DNA of 64,000 nucleotides from Candidatus Melainabacteria bacterium (lineage in GTDB: Bacteria > Cyanobacteriota > Vampirovibrionia > Obscuribacterales > Obscuribacteraceae): assembly GCA_003153555.1 (NCBI GenBank), contig PLZS01000206.1, forward strand, positions 1-64,000, in the 5' to 3' direction. Below, piece by piece: positions 25,497 to 38,537 of this stretch (position 1 is its first letter; each line of letters starts with the position of its first letter). The notes below the pieces were generated by a model. It was not told where the DNA came from and did not search any database. It saw only the letters and a program-made list of their open reading frames with translations. Both the position numbers and the translations under genes were made by a program.

Positions 25497-26453
25497 CTAA
25501 ACTACTGACGAAAATCGGCTACCCTGGCTGGTTCCACGCCGAGCCATCTCGTTGTCGATGGCGTCCATTACGTGCCTTTTGTCAAAGCACCATTCAGGAC
25601 CGACAACATCATTTCGTGAACCTTCAGCGACAAGACGCATGATGATTTGATGTGGTGGCAACATCTCTAAAGAATCGCAGACCATTTGCACGTATTTTGC
25701 CTCGCTCAAGAAAGTGATATTGCCATTTTGCAAATCACGTTCCATTGGCGTGCCTTTGTAAACGCAGAGCTGATGAATCTTCACTCCGTCTACGGACGAA
25801 TTGGCAACTTTGCGTACTGTTTCGAACATCTCTTCTTCTGTTTCGCCGGGCAATCCAAAAATGAGATGCGTGGCAACTTTCAGGCGACGAGCTTTGGCTC
25901 TTTCTAGGGCATCGAAAAACTCTTCCGCTGAATGACCGCGGTTGATCAGGTCAAGTGTCCGATTGTGAATAGTCTGAAGACCAACTTCCAGCCAAACAAA
26001 GGTCTTTTCATCGTATTCAGCTAGCAAATCGAGCACGTTGTCTGGCATACAATCCGGCCTGGTGCCGATGCACAGGCCGACCACATCCTCAAATTCAAAG
26101 CAGACATCGTACAGGCTTCGCAAAACGGCCTGCGGCGCATACGTATTAGTGAATGCCTGAAAGTAGCCGAGAAATTTCTTCGCTTTATATCTGCCGGTTA
26201 TTCGCTCAATGCCTGTGCTTAACTGCTCTCTCACGTTGAGAGTATTGTCGATAGTGGGCGCACCGGACCCTTTTTCGTCACAAAAAGTACAACCACCGAA
26301 GGCGCGAACGCCGTCGCGGTTCGGACAAGTAAATCCAGCGTCAATTGGCACTCGATAAACTCGAGTTCCGAAATATTCCTTCAAGTAATTATTGAAAGTA
26401 CGATATCTTGGCGAGCCAGTCTCGACTGTTTTAACATCAAGTTGCGTGTTCAT
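25497..26453 (-). CDS. TIGR01212-family (YhcC-like) radical SAM protein
   Basis: A 318-residue protein with an atypically spaced 4Fe-4S cluster motif: Cys43, then Cys55 and Cys58 (FTCPNRDGVRAFGGCTFC). Other family motifs are YFQAFTNTYA, CIGTRPDCMPD, WLEVGLQTIHNRTLDLINRGH and HLIFGLPGETEEEM. The family is widely conserved but its reaction is not firmly established; the fold relates to tRNA-modifying and oxygen-independent oxidases. It has only the radical SAM core, with no extra domain. Read on its own strand, it is preceded by a spacer holding the tRNA-Glu on the other strand. Confidence 0.93.
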   Translation of the reverse strand: MNTQLDVKTVETGSPRYRTFNNYLKEYFGTRVYRVPIDAGFTCPNRDGVRAFGGCTFCDEKGSGAPTIDNTLNVREQLSTGIERITGRYKAKKFLGYFQAFTNTYAPQAVLRSLYDVCFEFEDVVGLCIGTRPDCMPDNVLDLLAEYDEKTFVWLEVGLQTIHNRTLDLINRGHSAEEFFDALERAKARRLKVATHLIFGLPGETEEEMFETVRKVANSSVDGVKIHQLCVYKGTPMERDLQNGNITFLSEAKYVQMVCDSLEMLPPHQIIMRLVAEGSRNDVVGPEWCFDKRHVMDAIDNEMARRGTSQGSRFSSVV

Positions 26454-26575: not shown

Positions 26576-26607
26576 GACTTCCTGATGCTGTCTGCGTCTT
26601 AGACTAT

Positions 26608-26680
26608 GCCCCCATCGTCTAGAGGCCCAGGACACCTCCCTTTCACGGAGGTAACGGGGATTCGAATTCCCCTGGGGGTA
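26608..26680 (+). tRNA. tRNA-Glu (anticodon UUC)
   Basis: A complete cloverleaf of 73 bases. The acceptor stem is GCCCCCA with TGGGGGT (one G-U pair at position 1-72), then discriminator A. The anticodon stem is CCTCC/GGAGG with loop CTTTCAC, giving anticodon TTC at 26642-26644. The T arm is GGGGATTCGAATTCCCC. The 3' CCA is not encoded. The D-arm TCGTCTAGAGGCCCAGGACA is as in other bacterial tRNA-Glu. A T-run (GATTTTTTAT) begins 1-2 bases after the gene. Confidence 0.97.
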
Positions 26681-26925
26681 GATTTTTTATAGGCGCTCTG
26701 TCGCCTTCGGCTCCGCCGCGCAAACCCGTTCGCTGCCCGCGTTCATGCCGCGCTTGTCATGTGCTCGGACTGATTGGTTCGTTGCACAGTTCCTGATATC
26801 ACTCGCCTGAAAGCGGTACTGCGACTCGGAATAATCCACTGTTCGAACTTATCAGCTTTGTCCATAAGAAGCACCGAACACAACAGTGTCAAAAATCGTC
26901 GTACAATTTAGATGTAACGACACAG

Positions 26926-28167
26926 GTGCGACAAATGGAAACAGAGAGCAAGCCGATCAGACTTGGCGAATTGCTCACCCGAGTTGGCTTACTGCGCGCG
27001 CACGAGTTGACTGAGGCTATTCAAATCGCCGGAGAAACGGGGTTACCGATAGGTCGCGTCTTGATTATGTCTGGATATCTGACCGATCAGGAATTACAAG
27101 CTGCTGTTCAGGCTCAGTCATTTTTGAAAGACAAAGTGATCGACATGGACATGGCAGTGAATGCACTGCACAAGGTTTCGCAGGAAGAAGTCACGTTCGA
27201 TCAAGCTTTGCGGCAACTGGGCTGGGTTACTAAATCAACTCACCAGACTGCCAAATTGGGCGAATTAGTTCTAGGCGCCGAACTTGTCACTCAAGATCAA
27301 TTAAACGAAGCCTTGCGCACTAGTCAAGAAACAGGGTTACCGCTTGGTCGAGTCCTGGTGCTAACGCAAGCAATGTCGGACGAATTGTTGTCCGCTGCGC
27401 TGACGGCGCAAGTTCTTGTTCGGGACGGGAAAATCGCTAGAGATCAAGCCATCCAGGGGCTCAAATCGGCGAGACGCCGACGTGTAACCATTGAAGTTTC
27501 GCTCATGGATCACGGCTTTTATCGCCCACCCCAGCGCCAATCAGTCAAACTCGGCGAACTCCTCGTTCTTTCGGGTCTAGTCAACGAAGGCGATTTGATG
27601 AACGCCTTGGAATTAGGATTGACGAAAGAAATGCCTATTGGTCAAGTTCTCGTTGAGTCTGGATACATATCGAAAGACATTTTGCTGGCATCTTTGAAGT
27701 TGCAAGAGATGGTAACAAACGGCACGCTCAATGCGCTCCAAGCGTCAGAAGCAATTCGCCAAGTTGCCACACGTGGATTTTCGATCGCACAAGCTGTTGC
27801 AGAATTGGGCTTACTCAAATTTGACGCCAATGAAACTATCCGATTAGGCGAGATCCTCAAGGCGTCCGGCGTTATAACAGATGACGACATAAAAAAGGCG
27901 ATCGAATTGAGTTCGCGCAATTCGGCTTTGGTAGGCAAGATGCTCTTGGTGACAGGAATGATCGACGAAGCTACATTGCATGCATCTCTGCGCTGTCAAT
28001 TTCTTTTGCGGGAAGGTTTTTTGAAAATGGAACAAGCAATCGTTGCATTGAGCCATTGCCAACGCAATCGCTGCAGTTTTGATGATGCGCTTCAAGAATT
28101 GGGCTGGACAATCAACACGCGCATGCAAGATGTTGTCGACATCGCCGACGAGCCGCACGAGTTTTGA
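26926..28167 (+). CDS. protein of four tandem MshEN-like (c-di-GMP-binding-type) domains
   Basis: A 413-residue soluble protein built of four repeats beginning at residues 12, 110, 208 and 306, an exact 98-residue period. Each repeat opens with two ~24-residue motifs, [RK]LGE[LI]L..G.(V/L)....L..A and (I/L/V)G..L...G.........A..Q, joined by a five-residue linker, then a helical half ending in a QELGW/RQLGW-like turn. That layout matches the MshEN domain at the N-terminus of type II secretion and pilus ATPases, some of which bind cyclic di-GMP. No ATPase is attached here. The start may be GTG 26926 or ATG 26935. The stop TGA abuts the ATG of the response regulator, so the two are cotranslated. 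c-di-GMP binding is inferred. Confidence 0.85.
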   Translation: MRQMETESKPIRLGELLTRVGLLRAHELTEAIQIAGETGLPIGRVLIMSGYLTDQELQAAVQAQSFLKDKVIDMDMAVNALHKVSQEEVTFDQALRQLGWVTKSTHQTAKLGELVLGAELVTQDQLNEALRTSQETGLPLGRVLVLTQAMSDELLSAALTAQVLVRDGKIARDQAIQGLKSARRRRVTIEVSLMDHGFYRPPQRQSVKLGELLVLSGLVNEGDLMNALELGLTKEMPIGQVLVESGYISKDILLASLKLQEMVTNGTLNALQASEAIRQVATRGFSIAQAVAELGLLKFDANETIRLGEILKASGVITDDDIKKAIELSSRNSALVGKMLLVTGMIDEATLHASLRCQFLLREGFLKMEQAIVALSHCQRNRCSFDDALQELGWTINTRMQDVVDIADEPHEF

Positions 28168-28851
28168 ATGGCTAAAATTTTGCACGTTGAAGACGACGCC
28201 GAGTTAGCAGCGCGTGTTTCCCACTGGTTTAGTCTAGAAGGACATGTCTGCGAAACCGCTTACACCGGAAGCGACGCTTTGCAGTTGCTTAAGAACTTTC
28301 ATTATGACGTGATATTGCTGGATTGGAGTCTGCCGGACATATCAGGAATTGAAGTCTGCAATCAATATCGAAAGTCTGGCGGTATGTCCAGGATTATCTT
28401 TTTGACCGGAAGAGAAGACGTGGCTGATAAGGAAGCTGCTCTTGATATGGGAGGCGACGACTTTGTCGTCAAACCGTTTCACATACGCGAACTTTCAGCT
28501 AGAGTGCGAAGCGCGTTGAGAAGACCGGCTGATTCTTTTCAAGCTGCTCTAAAAATAAATGATGTAACCTTGGACGTAACTCGGAGGACCATGATTGTCA
28601 ACGAAACGGATTGCCGATTGATGCCAAAAGAGGTCGCGTTACTGGAATATTTGATGCGGCATACCAATCAAGTTTTCGGTACGAAAAAATTGCTGTCTGC
28701 CGTCTGGCCCAGTGACAGTGGAGCTTCTGAAGGTTCGGTTAGAACATCCATGCATACTCTTCGTAAGAAACTAGAAACAGCTGGCAAGCCTGACTTCATT
28801 TCTACTGTGCTCGGTGAAGGTTACACTATTAAAAGCACTGAAGAATGCTAG
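28168..28851 (+). CDS. OmpR/PhoB-family response regulator
   Basis: A 227-residue two-domain regulator. The receiver has the acidic pair E8/D9/D10, phospho-acceptor Asp52 (VILLDWSLPD), switch Thr in IIFLTGRE and Lys in FVVKPF. The C-terminal half is a winged-helix DNA-binding domain (LMPKEVALLEYLMRHTNQVFGTKKLL...GSVRTSMHTLRKKLETAG...VLGEGYTI). It begins directly at the stop of the MshEN-repeat gene. The two histidine kinases at 30.0-33.7 kb are candidates for its partner, though the THEP1/SWIM gene on the opposite strand lies between. Confidence 0.95.
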   Translation: MAKILHVEDDAELAARVSHWFSLEGHVCETAYTGSDALQLLKNFHYDVILLDWSLPDISGIEVCNQYRKSGGMSRIIFLTGREDVADKEAALDMGGDDFVVKPFHIRELSARVRSALRRPADSFQAALKINDVTLDVTRRTMIVNETDCRLMPKEVALLEYLMRHTNQVFGTKKLLSAVWPSDSGASEGSVRTSMHTLRKKLETAGKPDFISTVLGEGYTIKSTEEC

Positions 28852-28967
28852 CATTTGCTGAATGCAGGGTCATTAATATATCTGGTCGCAATGTATCAAT
28901 GCCGTGACTCAACTAGCCTGCACAGCTCTTGGTGATGATACCAGATATGATACTACCTGAGGAATCC

Positions 28968-29882
28968 TCAGCAAACTGGAAGCGCAGATGATGTTGCTAT
29001 CCCAGGGAACGGTTCAGAAGCTGCGGCCAATGAAATTAAGATACTAATTTCATGAGAACACGTTTGAGGGTACCCTGTATACTTGCCCACACCATGGTGC
29101 AGATCGCAATCACAATTGAAGGTGCCGTTTCTCCAAGTGATTAGATGGTCGCGTTCCTTGCCACCGACGCGATACTCTGAGGTGAGTCCATTCTGCTTAA
29201 CTTGACGCACTTTTTTTTGCGCTACAGATCCGATCGAATCTGAAAATAATTTCTCGGCGGAGATGTATTCCGTTTGACAAAGATAGCGATTAAGCAGCGC
29301 GAATACTGTGCGTTGTTGCTGCGAATCTAGCCCCTCAAAGAAATGCGAATTGTTAAATGCGCTAGTCAAGATCGGAGGCAATGCATTTCGATTTTCTTTG
29401 GTTATTTCCACAACGCAAACATTCGGGTACCGTTTCAATTCGACTATTTCTGGCAGGTTGTCACTGACAGCAGAAGCCAAAACATGACTCTGGGTCCTAA
29501 ACAACAAGCGCACGGTCTCAAAAAATTTTCGCGACTGCAGTTGCGGGGCCCCAATATCGTCAATGTAGACTAGCGAATTTTCGACGGAGGTTAGTGCTCT
29601 CTGCAACTCATCAACTATAAAGTGATCAATCACAGGAATATTGACCAAGCATTGAGCGGGCAATCTCCCTAATGAAGATGAATCACTCTGGATCATGAAT
29701 GTTCGCGAGTCACCATCGCTGTTTTGAGCTGAAAGACCAATGAGTCCACCAGCCTCATTCAAGATTGCTTTGGACACTATGCCGCGGCAACTGATCGATT
29801 GGGTCCACTGTAATCGCTCGACTACGGTCTCTACAAGTGTGCTTTTGCCCATTCCAGGTGGTGCGATCAACAGAAATTTCAT
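28968..29882 (-). CDS. THEP1-like P-loop NTPase fused to a C-terminal SWIM zinc finger
   Basis: A 304-residue protein. The N-terminal ~170 residues resemble small NTPases of the THEP1 (DUF265) type: Walker A APPGMGKST at 7-15, CRGIVSKAILNEAGGLIGLSA in the place of the conserved Cys-Gly-strand, and a Walker B-like SLVYIDDIG. The C-terminal ~60 residues hold a SWIM motif, C257-D-C259, then C275-S-H277 (CxC-x15-CxH), in the usual beta-strand setting (LITWRNGTFNCDC). SWIM fingers bind DNA or proteins. I do not know this combination as a described family. It is divergent from the sensor kinase genes and convergent with the response regulator. Confidence 0.75.
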   Translation of the reverse strand: MKFLLIAPPGMGKSTLVETVVERLQWTQSISCRGIVSKAILNEAGGLIGLSAQNSDGDSRTFMIQSDSSSLGRLPAQCLVNIPVIDHFIVDELQRALTSVENSLVYIDDIGAPQLQSRKFFETVRLLFRTQSHVLASAVSDNLPEIVELKRYPNVCVVEITKENRNALPPILTSAFNNSHFFEGLDSQQQRTVFALLNRYLCQTEYISAEKLFSDSIGSVAQKKVRQVKQNGLTSEYRVGGKERDHLITWRNGTFNCDCDLHHGVGKYTGYPQTCSHEISILISLAAASEPFPGIATSSALPVC

Positions 29883-30036
29883 GCATTTTCATCCTATAGT
29901 GAATGTGGTTGATGCACAATTAGACATCGGTTGTCGTCAAAATCTCGTCAAAGTGATCGACAAAAATTTGTTGAGATGGCGGTCAAATCAAGGCCAAAAG
30001 TCTTGCTGATACAATGAGGCAATCGCGCACTGGAGA

Positions 30037-31866
30037 TTGACTAGCTTGTTTCGTAGAATGTCGGTCTGGCATAAATTGCTTTTGCTGGTTCTAATTCCAC
30101 TCGTATTCGAAATCTTTTTTGCCTCATCCCTGGCTTTGCTTCTTAGTTACGCAGAAGAGCAGACCGATCGGTATGAGAAATCCAAAGAAGTAGTTTTGCG
30201 CATTAACATGGCTGAGAGTGGTCTTGCCCACACTATGCTCGCCATTTTCTTAGGTTTTATTTCCCATTCAGAGCACTTCGGCGTTGAGCTTGATCGTGCC
30301 ACCGAGACGATGCGCGAAAGCAGAAATATGATTGCCAGCACCGAGCATATCAGACCCGAATTAGCATATGCCATTGCGCCTGTTCCCAAAGCGCTCGACC
30401 GTGCCATGGACATCCTAACTGAGTTGAAGAGACTTCAAGCTGACCCCAATGTGCCTATAAGCAAAGAACTTAGCTACATTTACCGAGACGTGTTCCCTTT
30501 TATCCATGAGCTTCGGCAAATTACAGAGAACTTGATTCGAGCTGAAAACGACATGCGTGCGGTTGCTCCGCGTGAGCTTGAGGTTTTTCGTAACGCCGTA
30601 TTTGTCATTTTGGGTTTCGGATTATTATTCAGCACAATTATTTCAGTTACCGCCTCTATTGTTTTTTCGAAAAATATTGTTAGACGGTTACAGCAGATCG
30701 AAAAGAATGCACAGCTTCTGGCAATACGAGCACCATTTACCGCTGAGGCGATTGGCGCAGATGAGATTGACAAACTAGCAATCTCATTGGAAGAGGCGAG
30801 CCATGTTCTTACCGAGACTAGACAAAGAGAGTTAACGATCCTGGACGTAGCAACCGACGTCATTTGCTCTTTTGATAAACGATTTCGATTCACCGCAGTT
30901 GGTGCAGCGGCTTTGCCCTCTTGGGGTTATGAGCCCGATGATCTGCTTGGTGAGTCGCTCATCTCATTGCAGGTAAAGGAAGACGAACCGTCTTTTCGCG
31001 CCGCTCTCGCATCAATAACAGGATCTGATGCCTGTGGAGAATTCAATAGTCAATTGATTTGCAAAGATGGCAACTTGAAGGACATTCTCTGGAAAGTAAA
31101 ATGGGTCGGAGCAACTCAGTCCTTTTACTGTGTCGCGCACGATATCAGTGAACGACGAGCTGCGGAAAGAATGAAACAGCGCTTCATTGCGATAGCCAGC
31201 CACGATTTAAGAACTCCGCTTTCATCTATCTCGGTGACACTTTCTATTTTAATCGCAGGAGGAGTCGGGGAAGTACCTGCCAAAGCTCAGAAAATATTGC
31301 AAAAGGCTGACGAGAATCTAGAAAGATTGATGGATTTAATCAGAGATTTGCTCGATCTGGAAAAATTGGAAGCCGGTAAGATCGTCATGAGCATGAGTGT
31401 TGTCAGCGCTATGGACGTCTGTTTGACTGCTTGCGATTCACTGGAGTTCCTTGCTGACTCTCTTGATGTGATCATCGCCAAACCATTCATTGATGCCACT
31501 TTGCGTGCTGACGAAAGAAGCCTGGTACGCGTTGTGACCAACTTGCTGGCTAACGCAATTAAATTTTCACCGCGTGGTTCGACAGTTAGTGTGATGATTA
31601 AGAACTTGCCCGGCATGACTGAAATCAGTGTCACCGATCAAGGTCCGGGCATTCCCGTGCAAGATCGAGAAATCATCTTTGAAAAGTTCAGGCAATCCAA
31701 ATCGAAGGCGAACACAGCCATTAAAGGAACAGGATTAGGATTGGCCATATCCAAATTAATTACAGAGGCGCATGGCGGAACAATCGGCGTCGACAGTGTT
31801 GAGGGGCAGGGTAGCTGTTTTTACATTCGCATCCCGAGCTTTGAAGATGGGGAAGGCGAAGAATGA
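30037..31866 (+). CDS. membrane sensor histidine kinase (HAMP-PAS-HisKA-HATPase)
   Basis: About 609 residues. A first membrane helix (LLLLVLIPLVFEIFFASSLALLL), a ~140-residue external sensor domain of helical character and a second helix (about 183-207) are followed by a HAMP region, a PAS domain (about 265-375), the dimerisation/phospho-acceptor domain with His near 388 (ASHDLRTPLSSIS) and an HATPase with N, G1 and G2 boxes (NLLANAIKFS, DQGPGIP, GTGLGLAISKL). The start is unclear: TTG 30037, TTG 30046 (ten bases after GGAG) or ATG 30058. It overlaps the next kinase gene by ATGA. The paired arrangement suggests gene duplication. Confidence 0.93.
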   Translation: MTSLFRRMSVWHKLLLLVLIPLVFEIFFASSLALLLSYAEEQTDRYEKSKEVVLRINMAESGLAHTMLAIFLGFISHSEHFGVELDRATETMRESRNMIASTEHIRPELAYAIAPVPKALDRAMDILTELKRLQADPNVPISKELSYIYRDVFPFIHELRQITENLIRAENDMRAVAPRELEVFRNAVFVILGFGLLFSTIISVTASIVFSKNIVRRLQQIEKNAQLLAIRAPFTAEAIGADEIDKLAISLEEASHVLTETRQRELTILDVATDVICSFDKRFRFTAVGAAALPSWGYEPDDLLGESLISLQVKEDEPSFRAALASITGSDACGEFNSQLICKDGNLKDILWKVKWVGATQSFYCVAHDISERRAAERMKQRFIAIASHDLRTPLSSISVTLSILIAGGVGEVPAKAQKILQKADENLERLMDLIRDLLDLEKLEAGKIVMSMSVVSAMDVCLTACDSLEFLADSLDVIIAKPFIDATLRADERSLVRVVTNLLANAIKFSPRGSTVSVMIKNLPGMTEISVTDQGPGIPVQDREIIFEKFRQSKSKANTAIKGTGLGLAISKLITEAHGGTIGVDSVEGQGSCFYIRIPSFEDGEGEE

Positions 31867-33659
31867 AGCTGGCGACAAAAGGATTGCTGGTCGTAAGCTT
31901 GCCTCTTATTTTTCAAGCGTTGATCGTGTCGGTCTTGGTGGGGCTGCTGCTTCAGACCCAAGAGCTGGCTTATAAAGAAGCTAGAGTGAACGACATTATT
32001 TCAGAGTGTAATCAGCTCTCCATCAACATAGCAGCGGCGATTCAATCAGCATTTTTCGATAACAAAAAAACCGCTATTTTGGCGTCTCCATCGATACCAG
32101 GTGATTTGGATTTCATCAGACCAAGCGTGCGGAGTTTGCAAGAGCGCCTAGCCGAGCAGCCGGAAGAAGCTGAAAATATCAAGCGTCTTTCTCAGTTTAC
32201 AGAAAGATTTATTCGCCAGTTTAAGACGGCAAAAGAAGCGGATACTTCCCCTAAAAATGTTGGGTTTCAACTGCGAAATCTTCCCACAATAAAATTGCTG
32301 GTTACTAACGATCACTTATACAACATCTTCACAGATACGATTGCAGTTGAAAATCAAGCGCATACCGAACTGCCTCAAAAAAGAGAAAAAGCGCGATCTT
32401 TGATCCGCATATGGCTACTGTTAGCAGTCGGGGCCAATATCCTTTCCGCTCTCGGGCTTGCTTACTTCAGCTCGAAAACGATCAGCAAACCTCTAGAGCG
32501 GATGGTCAAAAATGCGATAAACATTTCTAGGCGTCAGCCGCTAGAGCCTGAACTAATAGGCGGCAACGAGCTTGCACATCTCGATCAGGTTTTGCATTCG
32601 GTTGATTCGGCTATCGAGGAAGCTCTCACCAAAGAAAGAGATTTGATTGCTTATGCTGCCGACTTGGTTTTTTCAGTTGATAGGCATGGCATATTTCAAA
32701 GCGTCAATCCATTTGCAGAATCGATGCTTGGATTCGAACCTGAAAAGTTGATTGGAACCTCAATTTTGTCAGTAATTGCCGAGGCAGATCGGGAGAAGAC
32801 AATCCAGTTCCTGAGTAACCAATATCGAGACGGTGAAGCAATTGCAATTGAAATCATGATGCAACCGAGAAACCAAAATGTGATTGACACCGCTTGGTCA
32901 GCCATTTGGTCGCAACGGCAAGAAAGCATTTTTTGTGTTGCTCACGACATCACCGAACGTAAACATGTCGAGCGTTTGAAACAAGATTTCATTGCCATGT
33001 TGAGCCACGATTTAAGAACTCCATTGATGTCAGTGCTCAGCTCCATCAATCTTGTGCAAGCTGGCGCCGCAGGCGAGGTCAGCGCCCGTACTGAAAGTGA
33101 ATTGAACAAAGTCGAACGAAGTATCGATCATTTGATTGAACTCGTCAATGATTTGCTCGATTTCGAAAAATTGGAAGCGGGCAGAATGGACTTTGACATT
33201 TTGCCAATCAGTTTTAACGAAGTGTTGGACGAATCTCTGCGCCTAGTTCAAGCACTTACCGAGCAAAAACGAGTTAAGATTGGCTCTCCGACGAAAGATT
33301 TCACAGTGGCAGGAGATCAGCGCAAATTGATTCAAGTTATCGTGAATCTACTTTCTAATGCGCTCAAGCATTCACCTGAAGATGGGTTAGTGCAAATCCA
33401 AACGCAATCAACAGGCAACATGGTAGAAATATCCATTCATGATCAAGGTCCTGGTGTGCCCGATCAGTATGCCGAAATAATCTTTACACCCTTTGAACAA
33501 ATTTCGACACGATCTACTGCCGCATTGGGCACAGGGTTGGGACTTACGATCTGCAAATTATTGGTCGAAGGGCACGGTGGCAAAATCGGTGTGAGGAATT
33601 CAGATTTATTGCAAGGCAGCGCTTTTTGGTTCACGGTTCCAACTCCTGATTCTACGTAG
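31863..33659 (+). CDS. second membrane sensor histidine kinase, paralogue of the first
   Basis: A 598-residue kinase with the same order as its neighbour: membrane helix, ~140-residue external domain, membrane helix (LIRIWLLLAVGANILSALGLAY), HAMP, PAS, HisKA with His near 381 (LSHDLRTPLMSVLSS) and HATPase (NLLSNALKHSP, DQGPGVP, GTGLGLTICKL). The ATG lies in the ATGA of the previous stop. The sensor domains differ more than the kinase cores, so the two probably read different signals, or act as a heteromeric pair. The nearest DNA-binding response regulator is at 28168. Confidence 0.94.
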   Translation: MKLATKGLLVVSLPLIFQALIVSVLVGLLLQTQELAYKEARVNDIISECNQLSINIAAAIQSAFFDNKKTAILASPSIPGDLDFIRPSVRSLQERLAEQPEEAENIKRLSQFTERFIRQFKTAKEADTSPKNVGFQLRNLPTIKLLVTNDHLYNIFTDTIAVENQAHTELPQKREKARSLIRIWLLLAVGANILSALGLAYFSSKTISKPLERMVKNAINISRRQPLEPELIGGNELAHLDQVLHSVDSAIEEALTKERDLIAYAADLVFSVDRHGIFQSVNPFAESMLGFEPEKLIGTSILSVIAEADREKTIQFLSNQYRDGEAIAIEIMMQPRNQNVIDTAWSAIWSQRQESIFCVAHDITERKHVERLKQDFIAMLSHDLRTPLMSVLSSINLVQAGAAGEVSARTESELNKVERSIDHLIELVNDLLDFEKLEAGRMDFDILPISFNEVLDESLRLVQALTEQKRVKIGSPTKDFTVAGDQRKLIQVIVNLLSNALKHSPEDGLVQIQTQSTGNMVEISIHDQGPGVPDQYAEIIFTPFEQISTRSTAALGTGLGLTICKLLVEGHGGKIGVRNSDLLQGSAFWFTVPTPDST

Positions 33660-33779: not shown

Positions 33780-35741
33780 CTAGCGCAGTCGTTCCAGCAG
33801 GCGCTGCTTCACGCTCTCACTGGTATCAACATTCGATACCTGGCAAGTTGGATGCGCCCGCCGAAACTTATCGATACCAGATGCGGTGATGTTGGCACAG
33901 TTCTGAATTTCCAATATTTGCAGATTCTTTAGCGATGCAAGTCGCATCAATCCTGCGTCAGACAAGTTGGTTCTACTGAGCGACAGTTGTCCTAGCTTCT
34001 TGTGCCTCAAAATCGACTTCAGATCCAGTTCATTCAAGTGCAACTCATTAGCTGAAAGGCGCCTTAGATCAGGCGCATCTAGTTCTGACAAGCTCACCTT
34101 AGTACCATCTACAAAGAGCAATTGCAGACTGCTAATTTTTGAAATCGCCTTCAAAGCCTTGGATGTAATTTGTGTGAATTTCAAATCAACTAAATTTAAG
34201 TGCTTGAGCGTCGTTAGAAAATTCACGCCACTGTCGCCAATCCCAGTTTGCTGAACGACGAGACTTTCTAAATTCGGAAAGTGCTCAGCGACGCCTTTGA
34301 GAGCGTCATTTGAAATTCCTGTGTCCTTTAAATTCAGACTCTTAAGCGGCAAGTGCCAGGCATTTTCTACCCCTGAATCCTTTACGTTTTCACAACTGTT
34401 CAGACTCAAATTTTCGATCGAACGAGCCCCCTGTAACGCAGACAAATCTTTGTTGGTGATACTGGTATCTTCAACGATAAGCTCTTTTCGTTGCCGATCT
34501 CGTTGGAGTTGACTTTCAATACCGCCAGTTAGGACTTTCGAAAGATCGATGCCACCCAACAAGTGCTCCGAAAACATTGGATCTACATGGTTTACTGGCG
34601 CGGGAGCAGGTGTTTGGATATTAGCCACCAAAAAGATTGCCGCGCATACCGCACCCAGCAGCATAAATGCCGACGCGCCAACAGCTAATCCAGACCAGAA
34701 CGGTAAACTAGAGGGAGTGTGATCTAGCGATGACTGAATTTGCGCTGGCAAGTTAACAAACGAAGTTCTGCCGTTAATTGGAACAACACAGAGATCGGAC
34801 TTCGTTTCCGCCTGATCGGTGATCAAATTCGAGTAGACTTCAGTCATTGATCCGAATCGTTCGTCGGCGCTCTTTGCCAACATTTTCTCGATTACAGGCT
34901 GAAGTTGCCTTGGGAATTCGCGACAACCGAATGTTGTTTCCGTCAAGGAAGGTGCCTCAAGTTGAACGTGTTGCATCATCACGCTCAGCTTACCGCTGCC
35001 CACAAATGGTGGCGTGCCAGTCAGGCATTCGAACAAGACGCAACCGAGTGAGTATTGGTCCGTTCGCGCGTCTACCATTTTCCCAAGGGCTTGCTCCGGG
35101 CTCATGTAGGCCGGAGTTCCGAACAATTCACCTGTTGCAGTTGCACCGGGGGCAGTATCGTCAATCATTTTAACGATACCAAAATCCAAGATCTTTGCTT
35201 GCAAGCGGGATGCATCTAAATGCTCGACAATGATATTGCTCGGTTTCAGATCCCGATGTATGACCCCGTTCTCGTGGGCGTATTGCAAAGCGCTGCAAAG
35301 TTGTTCGGCTAGTCTGAACACCTGTTCGACCGATAAAGGTCCATTTTTTTCAATCAAACTTGCCAGGGTGCGTCCTTCCACACTTTCCATAACAATGTAT
35401 GGTGCCGACAGATCAAAGTTAAACGAGTGCAGTCGAACAATATTTGGATGGTCTAGCTTGGCGATTGCTCTGGCTTCGCGACGAAAACGACTCAGCGCTT
35501 TTGGATTAGTGACCTGATCCTCAAAGAGCATTTTCACTGCCACTGTGCGATCAACAAACAAGTCTATGCAGCGATAAACGCTACTCATCCCGCCAGAGCC
35601 AAGTTTAGCCAGCACTTCAAACTGGCCGGCGATAACATCACCTGGAGCGAGTTCAGACAAGCAAACATACGGTGCTGAATCTTCTGCCAAAGAAAGGCTG
35701 ATTTTGGGTTCCACGTTAAACACGTTAGTAAGTCCGATCAT
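33780..35741 (-). CDS. membrane Ser/Thr protein kinase with C-terminal leucine-rich repeats
   Basis: A 653-residue protein. The N-terminal kinase domain (about 33-300) has LGSGGMSSVYRC, the ATP-anchoring Lys in AVKML, the catalytic HRDLKPSN near 161, the DFGIVK and the activation-loop GTPAYMSPEQ. One membrane helix lies at about 347-373. The part outside the membrane (about 420-647) is a run of leucine-rich repeats (LKSLNLKDTGISNDALKGV; LVDLKFTQITSKALKAISK), a typical ligand-binding or protein-binding surface. This is a receptor-like kinase architecture. It is alone on the minus strand, next to the histidine kinase cluster. The substrate is unknown. Confidence 0.93.
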   Translation of the reverse strand: MIGLTNVFNVEPKISLSLAEDSAPYVCLSELAPGDVIAGQFEVLAKLGSGGMSSVYRCIDLFVDRTVAVKMLFEDQVTNPKALSRFRREARAIAKLDHPNIVRLHSFNFDLSAPYIVMESVEGRTLASLIEKNGPLSVEQVFRLAEQLCSALQYAHENGVIHRDLKPSNIIVEHLDASRLQAKILDFGIVKMIDDTAPGATATGELFGTPAYMSPEQALGKMVDARTDQYSLGCVLFECLTGTPPFVGSGKLSVMMQHVQLEAPSLTETTFGCREFPRQLQPVIEKMLAKSADERFGSMTEVYSNLITDQAETKSDLCVVPINGRTSFVNLPAQIQSSLDHTPSSLPFWSGLAVGASAFMLLGAVCAAIFLVANIQTPAPAPVNHVDPMFSEHLLGGIDLSKVLTGGIESQLQRDRQRKELIVEDTSITNKDLSALQGARSIENLSLNSCENVKDSGVENAWHLPLKSLNLKDTGISNDALKGVAEHFPNLESLVVQQTGIGDSGVNFLTTLKHLNLVDLKFTQITSKALKAISKISSLQLLFVDGTKVSLSELDAPDLRRLSANELHLNELDLKSILRHKKLGQLSLSRTNLSDAGLMRLASLKNLQILEIQNCANITASGIDKFRRAHPTCQVSNVDTSESVKQRLLERLR

Positions 35742-35939: not shown

Positions 35940-38537
35940 CTAATCCAACTTCTCCAGCGTTGACTTTTCGCGTTCCTTGAAGGCAACTGCAACTTGCAGT
36001 TTCTCCTGATGCTGGGCCACTGTCTTCTGACCTTGCTTGACTGGATGAGATTGCAAGAACTCTGTGGTTTTCGACACATAATCCTTTTCCACAAGTCCAG
36101 TTATTCCCTCAAACATTCTCGTCAAAGAAACCTCAGGGAAAGTCTTGGTGATCGTCTCCCAATTCTCTGTGATGAACTGCCACGAGACCTTGCGTCCGAA
36201 TGGATTCATCATTACCTGGCGCACCAAGTATGGTGCGTTCTGTGTGCGCACCTCACCGTTGAGAGTTTTATCCAGTGTTTGCTTGAGAAGTTTCTCGTGC
36301 CGGAACATCGACAGCGCGTACATAAACCGGTCTTCTTCCTGAGGAGTGGACGCGGTTTTGAATTCATGAACGAAGCTGCTGTATCTGTCGTCACTACCCG
36401 TGTGGGCAAGAATGGTGACCAGGGCGGGGGCGATGTCAGTGGAGACCGAAGAGCGATCCTTCATGTATCGATCAAAGAGCTCCTTCGCTTTTTGCTGCAC
36501 TTCCTCGTCTTCACCCAGTGTGCCCAAGGCACCGATGATCAGTCCTCGCAATTGCTTGGTCAGCTCGTCTTCGTGAGGCTTGTTCTCCCAACCGAAACGT
36601 TTGTACGCTTTCGCGAAAAGAGTTCGGGTCAGTTTTTGCAATGGTTCAAACGTCTTGGAAGACTTGCCGTCAGCGGTCAACCTATCCAAATAATTCAACG
36701 AACCCAGAATCACGGTCCAAACATTTTTATCGCGCTCTTCGGTGAACAACTTGATCATGTCGATGTATTGCTTCAACGGCATCAAGCCAGCGAGCACCGC
36801 GGCCCAGCTGTCGTTGACCAGATTGAATCTTTCAATCGGCGCGAACTGGTTGATGTTGGTTGTAATAGTTTTCAGTAAATCAGCGCCGTACTGAACTCTG
36901 TAGAACCCGTGACCGCCTTCATTTACTACAACCCACTCAAGTTTCGATGGCAAATCAATTGTGGTTGCCTTCTCCGTAAGAAGAATTTTCTTCTCGATTA
37001 GACCTTCTGCGGTCCTAGCTTTCAGCATTATCGGCACATGAAAAAGTGTGTCCTTTCCGGGTGCGTTTTCACCGAAATACATGAATCGCTGTTGGCTCAA
37101 ACGCAATGTTTTGCCGTCATTGATTGCCTCGACGGTGATCAGTGGGTGTCCTTCCTGATAGATCCACGAATCCATCATTTGTCGAACCGGTTCTTTAGTT
37201 GACTCTTCAATGGCATCCCAAAGATCGGTCGTCTCAGTATTAGCGTATTTGTGCTTGCTCAGATACAAACTGATGCCTCGGCGGAACGGCTCTGTGCCAA
37301 GATATTGCTCCAGCATGCGCAGAACTGAAGCGCCCTTTTCGTACGTCAGCACATCGAACATTCCCTGTGCTTCTTCTGGCCGCTTAACAGGAAACTCGAT
37401 TGTGCGCGTGGCTCTCAGTCCATCGGTAGCAAAGGCTGAAGCGCGAGACACACCAAATGATTCCCATCGTTTCCAATTCGGTTTCCAGGAATCAACAGCC
37501 AGCATTTCCATAAATGTTGCAAAGGCTTCATTCAACCAAATACCATTCCACCAGCTCATCGTCGCCAGGTCGCCAAACCACATGTGAGCGATCTCGTGAG
37601 CGATGACATCCGCTACGCGTTCAAGTTCGGCATGTGATGCCGTTTTTTCATCGACGAGTAGAGCTGTTTCGCGGAAGGTGACTGCTCCCAAATTTTCCAT
37701 CGCCCCGAAGGCGAAGTCAGGTATAGCAATCAATTCCAGCTTATCGCCTGGATATTTGAGTCCGTAATAGCTGTTGAAAAACTTCAGCGAATGAGCGGCG
37801 ATGCCCTCCGCAAATTTGGCCAAGTTCAATTTCCCTGGTCGAGCCCAAACGCGGATCGGCGTGCCATCAGCATCAATTATTTCGGTCGCCTCAAATTCAC
37901 CGACAATAAAAGCGACAAGATATGTCGACATCTTCATCGTGTCGTTAAATCGCACAACTTTCTTTCCGCTCGGTAACAGCTTTTCGGCGCGGATGTTGGC
38001 GTTCGAAATCGCCGTCAAGTGTCGATCGACGATCAACGTGACTCTGAAAACAGCTTTGAAATCCGGTTCATCAAAGCACGGAAAAGCGCGACGAGCATCC
38101 GTTGCTTGCAGTTGAGTGCTGGCAATTACTTTGGTTTGCCCCTCGGAGTCCTTGTAAGTACTCCGGTAGAAGCCGTGCAACTTGTCATTCAAAATGCCCT
38201 TGAATTTGATATTCAGTTTCCATGAACCGGCTTGCAACATCTCAGGGAAAGTAAGGATGGCGCGCTCGTTTGCTTCATCCATACGAATCTGAGCAGGGAT
38301 ATTTTTCTGCTGATTGTTAACTACAAAAGCGCCGTGTAGCTCAAGTTCAATGGAGTTCAAGACAATTTCGCGCACGGGCTCGGCGACAGTGAGGTGAATG
38401 AGTTCCTCTCCATCGAACCTGAAATTGACCAGATCCGGCTCGATTTTAATCTCGTATCTTTCAGGAACCACGTTGCGTGGCAGCCTGTACGATAAGGTTT
38501 CCGGATCCATCACAGCGGTTGTGTCCTTTGACATCAA
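35940..38537 (-). CDS. M1-family zinc aminopeptidase (puromycin-sensitive type)
   Basis: An 865-residue aminopeptidase that removes N-terminal residues from peptides. The substrate-anchoring GAMEN lies at 278-282, the zinc ligands are His314, His318 (HEIAH) and Glu337 (WLNEAFA), and the C-terminal half is the helical ERAP1-like domain found in the eukaryote-type and archaeal-type enzymes. No signal peptide is present, so it is cytosolic. The gene is divergent from transketolase with 165 bp between. Its length and domain order are normal for the family. Confidence 0.95.
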   Translation of the reverse strand: MMSKDTTAVMDPETLSYRLPRNVVPERYEIKIEPDLVNFRFDGEELIHLTVAEPVREIVLNSIELELHGAFVVNNQQKNIPAQIRMDEANERAILTFPEMLQAGSWKLNIKFKGILNDKLHGFYRSTYKDSEGQTKVIASTQLQATDARRAFPCFDEPDFKAVFRVTLIVDRHLTAISNANIRAEKLLPSGKKVVRFNDTMKMSTYLVAFIVGEFEATEIIDADGTPIRVWARPGKLNLAKFAEGIAAHSLKFFNSYYGLKYPGDKLELIAIPDFAFGAMENLGAVTFRETALLVDEKTASHAELERVADVIAHEIAHMWFGDLATMSWWNGIWLNEAFATFMEMLAVDSWKPNWKRWESFGVSRASAFATDGLRATRTIEFPVKRPEEAQGMFDVLTYEKGASVLRMLEQYLGTEPFRRGISLYLSKHKYANTETTDLWDAIEESTKEPVRQMMDSWIYQEGHPLITVEAINDGKTLRLSQQRFMYFGENAPGKDTLFHVPIMLKARTAEGLIEKKILLTEKATTIDLPSKLEWVVVNEGGHGFYRVQYGADLLKTITTNINQFAPIERFNLVNDSWAAVLAGLMPLKQYIDMIKLFTEERDKNVWTVILGSLNYLDRLTADGKSSKTFEPLQKLTRTLFAKAYKRFGWENKPHEDELTKQLRGLIIGALGTLGEDEEVQQKAKELFDRYMKDRSSVSTDIAPALVTILAHTGSDDRYSSFVHEFKTASTPQEEDRFMYALSMFRHEKLLKQTLDKTLNGEVRTQNAPYLVRQVMMNPFGRKVSWQFITENWETITKTFPEVSLTRMFEGITGLVEKDYVSKTTEFLQSHPVKQGQKTVAQHQEKLQVAVAFKEREKSTLEKLD

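Follow-up and report, generated by a model that had tools for sequence, protein, structure and literature searches.

We analysed a window of 64,000 nucleotides from a Candidatus Melainabacteria bacterium of the order Obscuribacterales (GenBank assembly GCA_003153555.1, contig PLZS01000206.1, positions 1 to 64,000), drawn from a genome of 7.84 Mb in 208 contigs that is 86.6% complete and 7.0% contaminated. The analysis concerns a forward-strand gene at 26926-28167, hereafter the array gene, whose product consists of four tandem units of the MshEN type and has no other domain. The open reading frame encodes 413 amino acids from a GTG at 26926 or 410 amino acids from an ATG at 26935; the ATG is the more likely start, since a 91%-identical orthologue begins there. 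The units, all on the forward strand, lie at 26959-27252 (residues 12-109), 27253-27546 (residues 110-207), 27547-27840 (residues 208-305) and 27841-28122 (residues 306-399). Motif I reads RLG...A, KLG...S, KLG...G and RLG...S in units 1 to 4, motif II reads PIG...Q, PLG...Q, PIG...Q and LVG...Q, and in each unit a predicted two-helix cap follows. A first-pass annotation, made from the sequence and its open reading frames, had placed the gene and the unit starts (residues 12, 110, 208 and 306) at these positions, and self-comparison bears this out: an offset of 98 residues gives one sharp peak of 89 identities (28%), as against 4-11% at other offsets from 80 to 119. That annotation had called the repeats exact, which holds for their length and spacing but not for their sequence, the four 98-residue units being only 27-33% identical to one another. 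The layout that it described, with two 24-residue motifs joined by a 5-residue linker (53 residues), is seen in all four units. It was also right that there is no ATPase: a domain search found none in the array protein, and the open reading frame stops after unit 4. The product is a soluble protein.

The assignment of the units to the MshEN type is supported by both profile and fold. Each unit alone exceeds the curated cutoff of 38 bits for the NCBIfam model NF053729 (c-di-GMP_motif, titled 'cyclic di-GMP-binding domain, MshE-related'; c-di-GMP is cyclic di-GMP), with scores of 42.7, 48.0, 40.1 and 43.6 bits for units 1 to 4, and the whole protein scores 136.6 bits. The Pfam MshEN profile PF05157, which had been proposed as the check, matched neither the array protein nor any of 44 units (those of the window array and ten orthologues, four units each) at E <= 1, and it is thus the equivalent NCBIfam model that identifies the family. 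We built a structure model of unit 2 on an alignment of the same 44 units; it has six helices, with a predicted local distance difference test score (pLDDT) of 94.9 and a predicted template modelling score (pTM) of 0.84. In Foldseek searches with this model, matches of the MshE and PilF families dominate the list with a probability of about 1.0. Its first half overlays MshE in complex with c-di-GMP (5htl) at 0.6 Å over 56 residues, and the model overlays c-di-GMP complexes of the PilF domain GSPII-B at about 1.0 Å (overall range 0.6-1.1 Å over 54-56 residues); the c-di-GMP-bound structure of the PilF Q190E mutant (PDB 9gl5) is also among the matches. A unit profile likewise matches PilF, PilB and MshE chains, with the receptor-domain matches falling almost only over positions 2-55. 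Because the model and profile alignments cover the first half, we read each unit as a predicted MshEN_N domain followed by a 45-residue part other than MshEN_C, which in the model folds as two helices where MshEN_C would stand. Three other matches were set aside. A whole-protein match to Pfam DUF4388 (28.2 bits, over cutoff) was rejected as summed weak repeat-wise resemblance, because no single stretch passes alone and single units reach at best an E-value of 0.008; a FumaraseC_C match of the array protein is below cutoff; and Foldseek with a full-length model, of pTM only 0.31, returned designed toroids and fumarases as top matches at a template modelling score of about 0.1.

The window array belongs to a large family that appears, from sequence comparison, to be found so far only in Obscuribacterales, which are non-photosynthetic relatives of cyanobacteria. 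Four-unit arrays (E <= 1e-45) are present in 48 of the 53 genomes of the order, with up to 22 per genome, and none was found at E <= 1e-40 in 291 other genomes of the phylum, a sample and threshold that bound how far the limit to the order can be taken. In the host genome itself a search with the array gives 51 matches at E <= 1, and one with NF053729 gives 91. All relatives that carry a name are Obscuribacterales or 'Candidatus Melainabacteria' assemblies, and a pattern-based scan of genome contigs, the one survey to reach beyond the phylum, which detects close relatives only, confirmed records that are all of Melainabacteria/Obscuribacterales type. For each of the 59 full units tested, from 18 arrays, the nearest unit in any other array has the same ordinal position, from which we conclude that the tetramer, with its four distinct positions, predates the expansion of the family. 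We propose to define an Obscuribacterales array family by four 98-residue units in the fixed order 1-2-3-4, an arrangement that the window array has. Our search of the literature on Melainabacteria or Obscuribacter and c-di-GMP, or on DUF4388 and GGDEF, found no description of such a family.

The residues that would contact a ligand are conserved in part, and in a manner that differs between the two motifs. MshE grips each half of c-di-GMP through an Arg, backbone amides of a Gly-x pair, a cluster of Leu residues and the Gln that ends the motif (PMC5013675), and in both MshE and PilF the motif-I Gln touches the ribose-phosphate of the ligand (PMC5013675, PMC11731258). The first residue of motif I in the window protein is Arg or Lys and that of motif II is Pro or Leu, and the Gly residues and Leu/Ile clusters that hold the guanine are kept, with unit 2 lacking the turn Gly in both motifs. 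Gln ends both motifs in MshE (Gln32 and Gln61); in the array it ends motif II in all four units, and the motif-I position is Ala, Ser, Gly and Ser in units 1 to 4. Neither the motif-II Gln of any of the four units nor the 98-residue register varies across 11 orthologues. Among the 73 full units of the host genome the motif-II Gln is retained in 51, and the guanine-holding Gly, Leu and Ile residues are partly lost in paralogues. Four short MshEN-type proteins of the same genome retain the motif-I Gln, and its loss is therefore a trait of the arrays themselves.

We lean towards the reading that the array is a single-chain, four-site receptor and adaptor of the MshEN_N type for a cyclic dinucleotide, specific to the order, and that the two-component genes beside it (see below) are incidental. 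The chain would comprise four non-equivalent MshEN_N-type units, each a four-helix ligand site formed by the two 24-residue motifs and closed by the family-specific two-helix cap. Each site, or some of them, would most likely bind a cyclic dinucleotide, either c-di-GMP or a close relative of it. The motif-II Gln would hold one phosphate-ribose, and motif I would rely on a small residue; the affinity would probably be below that of a two-Gln site, because a small residue stands in place of the motif-I Gln. Ligand binding may then shift how the units pack against one another, and a docked partner would be altered in turn. Several observations weigh against this reading. The position of the motif-I Gln is occupied by another residue in all 44 units of the orthologue alignment and by Ser, Ala or Gly in 55 of the 73 host-genome units, among which Gln is not one of the eight commonest residues at that position; the motif-II Arg is replaced by Pro or Leu; and many paralogous units, above all unit 4, have lost further contact residues, so that a ligand-free structural role is possible for them. 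The Foldseek E-values of the unit model are poor (0.2-0.5) despite the low root-mean-square deviations, which is usual when the query is short and helical, and the full-length array model, with its pTM of 0.31, does not allow the packing between units to be read from it. Residues such as these at the start of the motifs are tolerated in PilF, where the high-affinity domain GSPII-B (6 nM) carries Lys in motif I and Leu in motif II, and GSPII-C carries Pro in motif II (PMC11731258). Similarly, PilF Q190E, the equivalent of a change at the motif-I Gln position, retains c-di-GMP binding with a dissociation constant of 0.95 uM (PMC11731258), and changes of MshE Gln32 lower binding at most about fivefold (PMC5013675), which makes binding of c-di-GMP by the array plausible. 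The host probably makes this nucleotide, given that its genome contains 46 GGDEF matches that exceed the Pfam cutoff.

The same replacements could instead mean that the MshEN_N fold has been kept and ligand binding lost, leaving the array as a rigid or spring-like adaptor between proteins. Helical-repeat proteins often serve as protein-protein adaptors, and several paralogues are fused to tetratricopeptide (TPR) repeats or to a Ser/Thr kinase. Ala, Ser or Gly stands in place of the motif-I Gln throughout the arrays, short MshEN-type proteins of the same genome keep this Gln, and MshEN-type domains that do not bind are known in XpsE (PMC5013675) and in the GSPII-A domain of PilF (PMC12002112). 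We nevertheless consider this explanation rather unlikely, since the window orthologues conserve the motif Gly, the Leu/Ile cluster, the motif-I Arg/Lys and the motif-II Gln, and since the PilF and MshE mutants just described still bind. Another way to account for the asymmetric site is that it binds a different nucleotide (cyclic GMP-AMP (cGAMP), cyclic di-AMP or another guanine nucleotide), making the array a receptor of changed specificity. The replacement in motif I is indeed specific to position, being mostly Ala, Ser, Gly and Ser in units 1, 2, 3 and 4, which looks like constraint on an altered half-site and not like decay, and cGAMP, too, is a ligand of MshEN, though a weak one (PMC5013675). 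The altered residue, on the other hand, touches the ribose-phosphate rather than the base, and the array retains the Gly-x backbone donors by which guanine is read; we regard a change of specificity as improbable.

The gene directly downstream of the array invites a different interpretation of its role. An OmpR/PhoB-type response regulator (28168-28851, forward strand) has its ATG at 28168, immediately after the array TGA at 28165-28167, as the first-pass annotation had observed. This zero-gap, same-strand junction means that the two genes may be co-transcribed in this one genome. Beyond an opposite-strand gene (28968-29882) for an NTPase_1 domain protein whose C-terminus is rich in Cys and His lie the two sensor histidine kinases that the annotation had described as close by, one at 30037-31866 and a PAS sensor kinase overlapping it at 31863-33659, both on the forward strand. 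From this arrangement the annotation had drawn a c-di-GMP-controlled scaffold acting on the adjacent regulator and the two kinases. A second array followed by an OmpR-type regulator on the same strand occurs elsewhere in the host genome (G000:C137:172863-174541, L084; the array has 392 amino acids); a search of 25 relatives at E <= 1e-60 found no orthologue of it.

The survey of neighbourhoods contradicts such a scaffold. Downstream sequence could be read at 12 orthologous loci, and at none of them does a response regulator or a histidine kinase adjoin the array; the nucleotide sequence is homologous to the two same-genus genomes only as far as the array stop codon. A search for the regulator itself in these two genomes gave nothing at E <= 1e-75, and its best identity elsewhere in the family is 57%. 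A related regulator does occur in another genome (G009) near two tandem kinases like those of the window (36% and 30% identical to the first and second, respectively), with no array there; that genome's own array has no regulator or kinase as a neighbour. Moreover, a receiver domain lies within 1.5 kb of 2 of the 27 host-genome arrays, compared with 1.7 expected (P = 0.52). On the combined grounds of synteny, regulator homology and genome-wide adjacency, we rejected membership of the array in a conserved two-component cluster. The annotation had itself named the lack of a conserved neighbourhood in relatives as grounds for refutation, and for the two-component genes this is what the orthologous loci show. 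Because regulators and kinases are absent beside the array in relatives and regulators are not enriched near arrays, the two-component genes appear to be a lineage-specific juxtaposition, a local accident and not conserved partners, and we judge it very improbable that the array acts on this phosphorelay. The earlier interpretation as a whole is thus partly supported: its identification of the repeats was right, and is better founded than could be known at the time.

The flanks that are conserved lie on either side of the two-component block. A radical-SAM-like gene (25497-26453, reverse strand; named, like the aminopeptidase below, from its sequence) is a conserved divergent neighbour of the array. 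Between the two lies a tRNA-Glu(TTC) gene (26607-26681, forward strand), which has the same upstream position in 10 of the 13 orthologous loci scanned and is the conserved neighbour on that side. At one locus (L036, 4424-5608) the tRNA-Glu is missing and a phage-integrase-like gene stands upstream of the array instead, which suggests an island at that tRNA gene. On the upstream side several orthologous loci share glyQ-like, ROK-like and radical-SAM-like genes, and on the downstream side PepN-like and transketolase genes; in these the array stands directly before the PepN-like gene with no two-component block between them, which marks the block as extra in the present genome. Here the aminopeptidase-N-like (PepN-like) gene is at 35940-38537 on the reverse strand, and a gene for a Ser/Thr kinase with C-terminal leucine-rich repeats (33780-35741) follows the two-component genes. 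Similar genes, combining kinase and leucine-rich repeats, are also met near further loci of the family.

A recurrent partner is found for other members of the family. A GGDEF match lies within 1.5 kb of 4 of the 27 host-genome arrays, where 0.7 would be expected (P = 0.004, under a null that ignores contig ends), and the pattern traces to a gene with DUF4388 and a degenerate GGDEF-like C-terminus from which the GGDEF signature is absent. A paralogous array follows this gene immediately, often with its start codon overlapping the stop codon of the gene, at 14 loci (L094-L103, L113, L118, L119 and L121) in 13 genomes that span many genera and the two families of the order; in the host genome the pair is at C58:82656-85000 and C159:15284-18732. 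The window array lies outside this subgroup, and we found no name for the gene pair in the literature searched. Other paralogues are built differently: arrays at three loci (L070, L073 and L078) are fused to TPR repeats, in proteins of up to 1866 amino acids, and a Ser/Thr protein kinase (L090, 4207-5898; G000:C101) carries one array-type unit at its C-terminus. Tentatively, the arrays might be the main c-di-GMP effectors of Obscuribacterales, with four asymmetric one-Gln sites that would allow graded reading and with paralogues paired with partners such as the protein with DUF4388 and a dead GGDEF domain.

The MshEN domain was discovered in a search for missing c-di-GMP receptors, and the upper end of the counts of MshEN-encoding genes then reported was 22, in Myxococcus xanthus (PMC5013675). 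Up to 22 four-unit arrays per genome in this order represent a new architecture in which one ligand half-site is altered in a conserved way. If the arrays bind, a lineage that has hardly been cultured would possess a large set of unread effectors, which would also serve as a natural test of one-Gln MshEN sites; if they do not, the MshEN fold would have been re-used at scale as a scaffold.

Among known systems, the closest likeness is to the MshEN_N domain of Vibrio cholerae MshE (5htl; PMC5013675), with which the units share the two 24-residue motifs, the 5-residue linker, the four-helix fold and the motif-II Gln. Unlike MshE, the array has no ATPase, MshEN_C or motif-I Gln and is unmatched by PF05157, and it has four copies per chain, each with a two-helix cap. 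The absence of an ATPase domain C-terminal to the MshEN part separates it from the GspE, PilB and MshE secretion and pilus ATPases in general. Thermus thermophilus PilF resembles the array in having several MshEN-type domains per chain (GSPII-A, B and C) with uneven motif conservation (PMC11731258, PMC12002112), and the array's motif-I Lys and motif-II Leu or Pro also recall PilF. However, the three PilF domains are of about 140-170 residues, have C-terminal subdomains and sit on a traffic ATPase, and GSPII-B and GSPII-C retain Gln. NfrB, a c-di-GMP-activated glycosyltransferase with a C-terminal MshEN domain (NF008411), is a weak profile match to the array repeats; its domain sits on the glycosyltransferase, and the array falls far below the NF008411 cutoff. 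Lastly, NF053729, whose curated cutoff every unit exceeds, models 53 residues and extends neither to the full 98-residue unit nor to the architecture of four units.

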